From Gammaproteobacteria bacterium (GTDB lineage Bacteria; Pseudomonadota; Gammaproteobacteria; GRL18): DNA of 46,663 bases. Numbering within the stretch: position 1 is the first letter of the stretch; every line of letters starts with the position of its first letter. The translations under genes were made by a program, and so were the position numbers. Below are positions 27,580 to 31,125 of the stretch, piece by piece. The notes below the pieces were generated by a model. That model did not search any database and was not told where the DNA came from. It was given only the letters and a program-made list of their open reading frames with translations. The stretch spans positions 1-46,663 of the forward strand of contig JALUZF010000303.1 of NCBI GenBank assembly GCA_027012135.1. The letters are read 5' to 3'.

Positions 27580-28641
27580 TTAGCAGGATACTTTATGCAG
27601 ATTCAACAAAGCCAGTTCCCGCTCTAACTGCGGATAATCCAGATCCAGAAACTGGGTGTGATTAAAGGTCGTAAAACCTCCGCTGACCTCATACCAGGCA
27701 AAACCACTGCTCCAGGGGGCATCAGGATAAGTTCCCTGATGCTTTCTCGGCAGACAATACAGCTTACCGGGAATATAAATAAGATTATAACTAATATGCT
27801 GCTGATGTAAATGCTCAATAAATGACCAGCTCTCCTGCATATTATCAAATACCCGGCATTCCAGGGGATAGCTTTGGGAGCCGCCGTTGTGCTGCCAGAC
27901 CGGTTCTAAAACCGGTAAAGGGTGATCCTTGATAAACAGGTGAAAATGCAGATGATTAATGGAAGAAAACGCACCATAGGCATTATAAGCCATGCCGAGC
28001 CCCGGCAGAGTTTCGCCCAGTTGTGCGGTTAACTGCCAGATATACTGATGATAATCACGCTGCAGATACTGGGGCAGACATTTTTCAGCATCGGGCACCA
28101 GCAGAGAATGAAAGCGTGCAAAGGGAAATTTATTATAAAAAATCTGTAGTTTTCTATCGTGTAAAGTGCCGGACCAGTAGCACTCTTTCTGTAAAAAAGG
28201 CTTGTTAAAATGAAAACCGTCAGGGTTAAAGTCCAGAAAAATACCTTCAATTACATTCTGGCTCATACGGGCAGGGCGCAGGGAACGGATATGATTAAAC
28301 TGCAGTTCCCACTGGCGATTATTATGATGAACATGACGGAATTCTGTCTGGCTGATCTGTTCAATACCACCCATGGCCATCAGCTTTAAAAATACCAGAA
28401 TATCATCCGGTGCTTCAGTCAGCAGTTGCCCGTCCTGTAACAGACTGCGATATTTATCAGCCAGTTGATGGTATTTTTTCTGTAATGCCTCATTAGTATA
28501 GTCGTGCACATGCTGATCAAAACTGGCATTGGCCAGTACCAGGATAAAAACACCCAGTTCATCATAGTCCAGTAACTGCACCAGACCCTGCTCGAAAATG
28601 TGACGGAATTGTGCTTTTGAAGAAAATATTTCAGGGATCAT
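27580..28641 (-). CDS. HIT-superfamily nucleotidyl transferase/phosphorylase-like protein
   Basis: 353 aa. A HIT-type catalytic motif appears as SSINHLHFHLFIKDHP (near 229-244), with the histidine triad HLHFHL. It is preceded by NKFPFARFHSLLVPD, the strand and loop typical of Ap4A phosphorylase and GDP-hexose phosphorylase relatives. A second half with LIYIPGKLYCLPRKHQG-like sequence is consistent with the duplicated fold of GalT/GDPGP-type enzymes. The substrate cannot be read from sequence. It is a lone minus-strand gene, with the foldback element immediately downstream of its stop. Confidence 0.7.
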   Translation of the reverse strand: MIPEIFSSKAQFRHIFEQGLVQLLDYDELGVFILVLANASFDQHVHDYTNEALQKKYHQLADKYRSLLQDGQLLTEAPDDILVFLKLMAMGGIEQISQTEFRHVHHNNRQWELQFNHIRSLRPARMSQNVIEGIFLDFNPDGFHFNKPFLQKECYWSGTLHDRKLQIFYNKFPFARFHSLLVPDAEKCLPQYLQRDYHQYIWQLTAQLGETLPGLGMAYNAYGAFSSINHLHFHLFIKDHPLPVLEPVWQHNGGSQSYPLECRVFDNMQESWSFIEHLHQQHISYNLIYIPGKLYCLPRKHQGTYPDAPWSSGFAWYEVSGGFTTFNHTQFLDLDYPQLERELALLNLHKVSC

Positions 28642-28754
28642 AATGAGTCTTATTATGACCTAAGTGGTTCTGTTATTACCAGAAAATCACAGAATTATGA
28701 CTAAATAAGGGGGTATTTTTTATCTTTAGTTTATAAAATCGGCCGTTATTGTGA

Positions 28755-28782
28755 TTGTTTCGTGACATATATTAATTATAAT
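28755..28782 (+). promoter_or_regulatory. Candidate sigma-70 promoter of the bufferin locus
   Basis: A perfect TATAAT -10 box (28777-28782) lies 16 nt after TTGTTT (28755-28760), a weak -35. It is about 80 nt upstream of the precursor gene start. The weak -35 would fit an activated promoter. No extracytoplasmic sigma factor gene is adjacent. Confidence 0.45.
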
Positions 28783-28864
28783 CAATCCTAACCTGTTGCT
28801 GAAAAGGACTGGAAGTCAATATCGGCGACAGGCTTTCTTATAATTATTAACGAAGGTATAAAAT

Positions 28865-29128
28865 ATGAATACAGCAAAAAAAATCACAGGTGCAGCCGTT
28901 GCTGCCGCAGCAGCCGCTTTAATCTCGACCGGTTTTACAGCCAGTGCAGTGGCTTCTCCAGCCCAGGACGGTACGGTAAAATGCAGCGGTATTAACTCCT
29001 GTAAAGGCACCACTGCCTGTGCCACAGCCACCAACTCCTGCAAAGGCCAGAACAGCTGTAAAGGTCAGGGCTGGATTAAAGCCACTAAACAGGAATGTGC
29101 AGACAAAGGCGGTAAGGTTGTAGGCTAA
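28865..29128 (+). CDS. bufA2: BufA2-like bufferin precursor (secreted six-Cys RiPP metallophore)
   Basis: 87 aa. A long signal peptide (residues 1-31, alanine-rich, AVAS cleavage region) is followed by a cysteine-rich core with Cys at 40, 46, 52, 59, 65 and 78. The core contains three SCKG units (NSCKGTTAC, NSCKGQ, NSCKGQGW) and ends ECADKGGK. This pattern is what I know as the BufA2 bufferin family, distinct from the DUF2282 (BufA1) type. Bufferins are periplasmic copper-buffering peptides whose cysteines are modified by DUF692 enzymes. bufB and bufC lie downstream, across a 245-nt gap containing a palindrome. Confidence 0.85.
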   Translation: MNTAKKITGAAVAAAAAALISTGFTASAVASPAQDGTVKCSGINSCKGTTACATATNSCKGQNSCKGQGWIKATKQECADKGGKVVG

Positions 29129-29146
29129 TAAGCTATGACTTTTTAG

Positions 29147-29362
29147 TCCGGGTTCCCATAATCCTAAATTAATAAGTTGAACCTACTGCGAATGTCCATA
29201 GCACTGAATCTACAAGGCTTTCCAGAATATTTTGACTTCACCCGTAGGGTGACTACGAATAAAGCCAAAATAACCTGTAAAACCTTGTATCTCCAGCACT
29301 CTGATCATTCTCGCTACGTTTCAACTGATTAATTTAGGATAAGCTGTATGGGAACACCCGGA
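29147..29362. repeat. Foldback element B, long imperfect palindrome between bufA2 and bufB
   Basis: The 216-nt segment folds back on itself over nearly its full length. Arms 29161-29181 and 29320-29340 match at 20 of 21 positions. Outer segments (29147-29160 and 29346-29362) pair apart from short insertions. The middle arms (about 29200-29240 and 29265-29300) pair imperfectly, and the apex is a CACCC-GTA-GGGTG hairpin. There is no ORF and no T tract for a terminator. It could be an inserted MITE or a transcript-level attenuator or stabiliser. It resembles element A near its right arm. Confidence 0.75.
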
Positions 29363-29373
29363 ATATAAATATT

Positions 29374-30309
29374 ATGCCCAATAAAACACCACAGAAAAAA
29401 TATCCTCAGCTGGGTTTTGGCCTGGGCCTGAGAAAAGAACATTATCAGGATGTCATAGACACCCGTCCCGATGTGGACTGGTTTGAGATCCTCACCGAAA
29501 ATTATCTGGTAGAGGGCGGCAAGCCGCTCTATTTCCTGCACCAGGTCGCTGAACATTATCCTCTGGTTATGCATGGCGTATCCATGAATATCGGCAATAC
29601 CGAACCACTGGACAGGGATTACCTGACACAGGTGAAACAGCTTAAAAAATCCATCAATGCCCGCTGGCTGTCCGATCATCTATGCTGGACAGGCACCAAC
29701 GGCACCAATGCCCATGACTTACTGCCCCTGCCTTATACCGAAGAAAGTATTAACCATGTGGTAGAGCGTATTGAACAGGTTCAGGATTTTCTCGGCAGCC
29801 GCCTGTTAATTGAAAATGTGTCCAGCTATATTTCCTATAAACAGTCTGAAATGAGCGAATGGGAATTTTTAAATGAAATTGCTAAACGTTCTGACTGTCT
29901 GCTATTGCTGGATATTAATAATATTTACGTATCAGCCGTTAACCATGAATTTGACCCGCTAAACTATCTTAATGCCATTGACCCTCAACAGGTTCAGCAA
30001 TTTCACCTGGCCGGTCATAGTGATTATGGTGACTATATTATTGATACCCACGACGAACCGGTCTGCAGAGCTGTCTGGGAACTTTATGCACAAGCCGTTG
30101 AACGCTTTGGTGAAACCACCTTTATGATTGAACGGGATGCCAGTATTCCGCCTCTGGCCGAACTGCTCGATGAACTGAACTTTGCCAGAAAAATTGCTGC
30201 AGCAGTTTCTACCCAGGGTATTAACCATCCGCAGATACAGAACCTGCTGGAGAATCTTCCAATAATACAAACTTCTGCCGCTGAGGCTTCAGAAGCTGCT
30301 GCTGTGTAA
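29374..30309 (+). CDS. bufB: DUF692/MNIO multinuclear iron oxidase BufB
   Basis: 311-aa TIM-barrel MNIO enzyme that modifies cysteines of the precursor. Metal-ligand segments typical of DUF692 are present: WFEILTENY, VMHGVSMNIG, WLSDHLCWTG, LLIENVSSYI, LLLDINNIYVSAVNHEFDP, FHLAGHSDYG, DTHDEPV and MIERDAS. The family uses such His, Asp, Glu and Asn residues to hold two or three irons. The ATG at 29374 lies just past the palindrome, with a weak GGAAT ribosome site. bufC follows after 3 nt. The likely product is an oxidatively modified, copper-binding BufA2. Confidence 0.92.
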   Translation: MPNKTPQKKYPQLGFGLGLRKEHYQDVIDTRPDVDWFEILTENYLVEGGKPLYFLHQVAEHYPLVMHGVSMNIGNTEPLDRDYLTQVKQLKKSINARWLSDHLCWTGTNGTNAHDLLPLPYTEESINHVVERIEQVQDFLGSRLLIENVSSYISYKQSEMSEWEFLNEIAKRSDCLLLLDINNIYVSAVNHEFDPLNYLNAIDPQQVQQFHLAGHSDYGDYIIDTHDEPVCRAVWELYAQAVERFGETTFMIERDASIPPLAELLDELNFARKIAAAVSTQGINHPQIQNLLENLPIIQTSAAEASEAAAV

Positions 30310-30312
30310 AGG

Positions 30313-31125
30313 ATGACACCAAAAACCATTATGAACAGCAGTAAATCCCAACCAGACCTGAAAGAACTACAGCGGCAGATGCTGGCCTGGCTGAAGGCAC
30401 ATGATCCCGTAATTAAAGAATCGGTAACCGGAACCGAAAAAGTACCGGCTGATTTACGCCTGGACATTTATGCCAATGCCTACCGTTATCGTCTGATAGA
30501 AGCGCTTGAAGATACCTTTCCGGCTCTGAATACCCTGTTAGGGGATGATGATTTTTTTAATATGGGCCTGCGTTATATTGAACGTTACCCGTCACAGCAT
30601 TTTTCCCTGCGTTTTTTCGGACACCGGCTGGCTGATTTTTTAGCGGCAGAAGATGGTTTCAAAGAGCAGAAAGTACTGTCAGAAATGGCACAGTTTGAAT
30701 GGCTGCTTCGGGCAACCTTTGATGCTGCAGCACAACCGCGCCTGAGCCTGGAAGATTTGCAAAATATAGCGCCGGAACAATGGCCGGAACTGACCTTCAG
30801 TTTTCATCCCTCACTACAGCGTATCAATTTAAGCTTTAATGTCCCCCAGCTCTGGCGGGCTATTGAACAGGAGCAACCCCCCATTGATATTGTCGAGCAG
30901 GAATATCCTGCCGGCTGGGTTATCTGGCGCAGAGATCTAAGAACCTGGTACCGCTCCATGGATGTGGATGAAGCATGGGCCATGGATACTATGCAGGAAG
31001 GTGAAAACTTTGCCACTATCTGTGCTGGTGTCTGTGAATGGATAGATGAACAGCATGCCCCCACCAGGGTCGCCGGGTTTATTCAAAACTGGATTAATGA
31101 AGGCCTTATCTGCTCCGTAAAATAA
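30313..31125 (+). CDS. bufC: DUF2063 partner protein BufC
   Basis: 270 aa. The N-terminal DUF2063 domain is clear: LKELQRQMLAWLKAHD, LRLDIYANAYRYRLIEALEDTFPALNTLLGDDDFF and RYIERYPSQHFSLRFFGHRLADFL. A second domain follows (about 125-270). These proteins bind the precursor and present it to the MNIO enzyme. AAAGG abuts the first ATG, and an alternative ATG lies at 30331. It starts 3 nt after bufB. A DoxX-type membrane gene (bufD), frequent in such operons, is not seen; the operon ends here facing a convergent receiver gene. Confidence 0.9.
   Translation: MTPKTIMNSSKSQPDLKELQRQMLAWLKAHDPVIKESVTGTEKVPADLRLDIYANAYRYRLIEALEDTFPALNTLLGDDDFFNMGLRYIERYPSQHFSLRFFGHRLADFLAAEDGFKEQKVLSEMAQFEWLLRATFDAAAQPRLSLEDLQNIAPEQWPELTFSFHPSLQRINLSFNVPQLWRAIEQEQPPIDIVEQEYPAGWVIWRRDLRTWYRSMDVDEAWAMDTMQEGENFATICAGVCEWIDEQHAPTRVAGFIQNWINEGLICSVK

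Follow-up and report, generated by a model that had tools for sequence, protein, structure and literature searches.

The window (the whole 46,663-nt stretch analysed) contains what is predicted to be an ordinary three-gene BufA2-type bufferin operon, in which a structured intergenic region separates the precursor gene from the gene for its maturation enzyme. The features of the locus are:

28751-28786, + strand: conserved putative promoter block GTGATTGTTTCGTGACATATATTAATTATAATCAAT upstream of bufA2, near-identical in G001 and recognisable in nine sister-genus genomes
28865-29128, + strand: bufA2, 87-aa precursor with Sec-type signal sequence (predicted) and six Cys (NF050166)
29147-29160, + strand: left arm TCCGGGTTCCCATA of an older bufA2-bufB hairpin, found insert-free in G001 and G005
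29158-29162, + strand: left target-site duplication, ATAAT
29163-29338, no strand assigned: ISL3-derived MITE of 176 nt with ends CCTAAATTAATAAGTTGAA and TTCAACTGATTAATTTAGG, repeated genome-wide, its ends matching an ISL3 transposon
29339-29343, + strand: right target-site duplication, ATAAG, with one mismatch to the left copy
29347-29362, + strand: right arm TATGGGAACACCCGGA of the older hairpin, also insert-free in G001 and G005
29374-30309, + strand: bufB, 311-aa MNIO (DUF692) bufferin maturase (NF050167, PF05114)
30313-31125, + strand: bufC, 270-aa DUF2063 partner protein (PF09836)

An earlier note on this DNA had proposed a BufA2-type bufferin pathway and suggested a profile search as the check; the search bears it out for all three genes. 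BufA2 scores 91.6 bits against the NCBIfam model NF050166 (Cu_RiPP_BufA2; cut-off 60), BufB 384 bits against NF050167 (NCBIfam; cut-off 310) with an E-value of 2.5e-111 against PF05114, and BufC 71.6 bits against PF09836/DUF2063 (cut-off 27.2), while falling below the equivalog cut-off for HvfC (NF050145; 32.9 bits vs 142). The BufA2 N-terminus is hydrophobic and Ala-rich, as expected of the predicted signal sequence. Its cysteines (40, 46, 52, 59, 65, and 78) and its three SCKG units, all exact in the longer form NSCKG, lie just where the note had put them, and all six cysteines are invariant across homologues. An AlphaFold2 model of BufA2 built with 57 homologues (mean pLDDT 57.7, pTM 0.36) is too poor for assigning paired or modified cysteines. 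bufB is the genome's sole MNIO gene; bufC adjoins it in all relatives compared, and the bufA2-bufB order and short spacing are retained in most loci.

The locus closely resembles described Buf2 clusters (Buf_6/12Cys, NCBIfam BufA2; PMC12452194) in its signal-sequence precursor with six conserved cysteines, in its MNIO plus DUF2063/PME-type 1 partner in identical gene order, and in having no sigma/anti-sigma genes, as reported for Buf2. It differs in lacking DoxX, which is optional in the family, and in the MITE between bufA2 and bufB, a feature of this one genome. According to published work on Buf2, cysteines of an exported precursor are modified by BufB and BufC; the chemistry is unsolved, with a mass loss per cysteine and an absorbance that resemble those of Buf1 (PMC12452194). 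In characterised thiooxazoles, each modified cysteine loses about 4 Da (PMC13097082). Captophorins, the MNIO-PME1 thiooxazole metallophores such as bufferin 1, fontiphorin, and bulbicupramide (PMC13097082, PMC12538549), likewise pair an MNIO and a DUF2063 partner with a Cys-rich precursor, but the precursor in the window has CKG units and six conserved cysteines rather than EGKCG repeats or DUF2282.

Several other genes in or around such loci may be of interest. The BufA2 of G005, a genome of the same genus (L063 83-349), carries a lipobox-like LLATGC and may be a lipoprotein, unlike the copy in the window. Five sister-genus genomes have a second BufA2 gene, with no adjoining MNIO, immediately preceding the gene for an OmpR-type response regulator (L069 3869-4132, L072 3043-3333, L074 4833-5099, L076 3281-3631, and L080 1-330); in four of the five a histidine kinase gene comes next, and in four of the five there is a divergent gene for a thioredoxin-fold protein. 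Judged by gene content, these loci are possible copper or redox sensing units. In the window, a divergent gene at 27580-28641 has a weak match to a HIT domain, and in most sister-genus loci bufA2 is likewise preceded by an apparent homologue in divergent orientation; a small EF-hand lipoprotein-like gene at 31967-32287 matches the lanmodulin model weakly and below threshold.

The earlier note had also singled out the missing DoxX-type gene. The bufferin locus indeed has none, and the two DoxX genes of this genome are both on other contigs; as a departure from the norm, however, the absence does not hold up. No adjoining DoxX was seen in the 13 bufABC loci read from the taxonomic family, and in a wider locus set, scanned on the downstream side only, a DoxX match was found in three of 40 downstream ORFs, a further 36 loci having no co-directional ORF of at least 90 aa within 250 nt of bufC. 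Lack of DoxX is thus usual for such loci. Several of the 13 family loci have a nadA-like gene following them, by sequence reading.

Upstream of bufA2, the 36-nt block GTGATTGTTTCGTGACATATATTAATTATAATCAAT has a likely -10 element (TATAAT) at its end and a likely -35 element (TTGTTT), with a 16-nt spacer. It is matched in G001, also of the same genus, with no mismatches outside two variable positions, and in nine sister-genus genomes with 3-10 mismatches of 36. A generic sigma-70 promoter scan did not flag this block, and its matches were no commoner than in shuffles. The conservation of the block supports transcription from a promoter upstream of bufA2. The spacer holds a dyad, TGATATATATCA, which we take to resemble an FNR-type site; similar dyads are present in the -35/-10 spacers of relatives, and the block may be the binding site of a regulator, of the FNR/CRP type or another.

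The most conspicuous feature of the locus, the palindrome described earlier as a single 216-nt element isolating bufA2 from bufB, is exactly where it was said to be and is very stable: as RNA, 29147-29362 folds with an MFE of -79.5, compared with -41.4 +/- 4.1 for shuffles (z -9.2), and folded as DNA it gives a z of -9.5. It is not a single element. With the palindrome as query, the genome gave 27 other long matches, all confined to the 176-nt core, which has the 19-nt terminal inverted repeats of a MITE at its ends (CCTAAATWAATCAGTTGAA); the palindrome is a composite, with this repeated element lying within an older hairpin. Since the MITE is itself a foldback and sits in the loop of that hairpin, the two read as one continuous 216-nt palindrome. 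An Rfam search of the region gave a single sub-threshold chance match only.

The order of events can be read from G001 and G005, both of which have an empty site: a bufA2-bufB gap of 87-88 nt containing TCCGGGTTCCCAT-loop-GGGAAnACCCGG, the same hairpin as the outer arms of the palindrome in the window. The hairpin is therefore the older of the two, and the MITE entered its loop. With the MITE excised, the window site still folds at z -4.2. On both sides the flanking sequence agrees with the buf loci of relatives, and the contig has therefore been joined correctly. The insertion has lengthened the stem and left bufB and bufC intact; the arms of the original hairpin are now 186 nt apart, and it may form more slowly here. 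The distance from stem end to bufB start is 12 nt, where G001 and G005 each have about 26 nt, so bufB output could be lower in this genome.

Of 24 genomes from the taxonomic family, 21 carry members of this MITE family, whose shorter forms go down to 37 nt. Among the 32 copies having both ends, a 5-bp flanking duplication is exact in 20 and has at most one mismatch in 28; these duplications are AT-rich (TTTAA, TTAAA, ATAAT, ATTAT, TTGAA), and none of 6 or 7 bp was seen in the same copies. The copy in the window is 95-97% identical to others, and its insertion may therefore be recent. The origin of the family is seen in a sister-genus genome, G015, in which a pair of MITE-like ends flanks a 4.2-kb stretch with ISL3 transposase pieces (PF01610, PF13542), split by ORFs that we read as an IS21-like insertion. 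One end of this transposon (L182) aligns to the MITE over 73 nt at 81% identity and the other over 113 nt at 89%, so the MITE derives from an ISL3-type transposon by internal deletion. The likeness to ISL3-family insertion sequences and their MITEs thus lies in ends shared with a transposon that has DDE_Tnp_ISL3 and HTH_Tnp_ISL3 domains; unlike ISL3 elements proper, the 176-nt element is non-autonomous and without transposase, and its duplications are 5 bp, ISL3 target duplications being usually 8 bp. The genome that holds the window yielded no ISL3 transposase. One contig of G015 (C1) carries several dozen near-identical 176-nt copies, suggesting a recent burst. At another locus (L091 2329-2381), a 53-nt MITE relative is likewise inside a hairpin, with stem GCCTCACCTT/AAGGTGAGG; targeting of hairpins by the family was considered and rejected, two of the 32 copies lying in hairpin loops.

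If the MITE insertion at this site is peculiar to this genome, is the hairpin? In a wider set of BufB-containing loci, mostly gammaproteobacterial, a strong hairpin was found in 62 of 78 bufA-bufB gaps of at least 25 nt (80%). The rate of strong stems was 13% in dinucleotide shuffles, 29% upstream of bufA, and 12% inside bufB, and in other gaps of the same loci 37% (of 82 co-directional) and 47% (of 43 convergent); the hairpin score is a simple, home-made one and the loci are mutually related, and the argument is one of effect size, not of p-values. Over 61 loci, the median folding z was -2.9 for the gaps, compared with -0.7 for the upstream regions paired with them as controls. Among nine Legionellales loci, almost all of them from Legionella, compensatory changes are seen at 5 of the 10 stem pairs. 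The sister-genus bufA2-bufB intergenic regions do not align, and the gaps of the other bufABC loci in the family usually contain a stem-loop even though they differ in sequence. The conserved feature is the hairpin, not the MITE.

A T-rich tail (4 or more T among the 8 bases that follow) is found after 32 of the 62 strong stems. Some of these hairpins therefore resemble intrinsic terminators, but not all do, and those of this genus do not: the window hairpin has no terminator-like site, and hairpins of this genus lack the T-run that a textbook terminator would have, which makes stabilisation or RNA processing as likely here as termination. Most likely, the bufA2-bufB hairpin would act as an internal terminator or RNA stabiliser, leaving the precursor in excess over the enzyme. 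The earlier suggestion that a structured element between the two genes gives them unequal expression is a reasonable reading, given its recurrence in most related loci and the covariation in Legionella.

The explanation that we favour, and hold to be probable as a whole, is the following. A single promoter upstream of bufA2 would drive the whole operon, and the hairpin just past the bufA2 stop codon would either end most transcripts or shield a short bufA2 RNA at its 3' end. BufB and BufC would be made from read-through, with the peptide in large excess over both enzymes. BufB with BufC would most likely convert some of the BufA2 cysteines to thiooxazole-type groups, and the modified product would bind excess copper in the periplasm. 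A metal-binding peptide is presumably needed in far larger amounts than the enzymes that modify it, which a stem-loop after the precursor gene would suit. Later, in this genome, the 176-nt non-autonomous ISL3-type MITE jumped into the hairpin loop, presumably with near-neutral effect. Two reports give precedents for internal stem-loops that set operon stoichiometry, with the stem-loop following a gene whose product is needed in excess (PMC9045158, PMC8219983); those cases concern ABC importers and Clostridium operons.

Other possibilities differ mainly in what is made of the insertion and of the stem. That the 216-nt foldback evolved as a regulatory element specific to this operon, as its very stable fold precisely between the precursor and enzyme genes might suggest and as the earlier note implied, is now very improbable: its core is repeated across the genome and the family, has transposon-like ends and target duplications, and is missing from the empty sites of the two same-genus relatives, which largely refute the idea. 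The MITE could instead have been adopted on arrival, the longer hairpin markedly altering bufBC expression and being retained for that. The foldback does remain continuous, and its closeness to the bufB start could hinder translation of bufB; we nevertheless think this unlikely, as the insertion is seen in one genome only, its identity to other copies is that of a possibly recent arrival, and the few copies found in hairpin loops make targeting no rule.

Two further readings concern the hairpin itself. It could be a full terminator, with bufBC transcribed from their own promoter. About half of the strong hairpins have T-rich tails, which would fit, but most loci retain the bufA2-bufB order and short spacing, and promoter-like matches near 29135-29162 are at chance level; this too seems unlikely. 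Less probable still is that the hairpin only sequesters the bufB ribosome-binding site, acting on translation: the stem does end 12 nt before the bufB start in this genome, but in most relatives the hairpin is near the bufA stop, tens of nucleotides from bufB.

The corrected picture removes a false lead, the core of the palindrome being a mobile element, and leaves in its place a clean example of a MITE lodged in an RNA hairpin, the empty site still being visible in relatives. The MITE is incidental; what is useful is how general the intercistronic hairpin proves to be. On balance, we lean towards the view that this hairpin, kept in position and not in sequence, is a general and previously undescribed device for setting the peptide:enzyme ratio in BufA2 operons across Gammaproteobacteria; a literature search, with subscription titles mostly outside its reach, found no paper with both "bufferin" and "terminator". 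The rule suggested is a simple one: with a stem-loop placed behind the precursor gene, a cell can probably make a metal-binding peptide, which acts stoichiometrically, in larger amounts than the enzymes of its maturation, which act catalytically.
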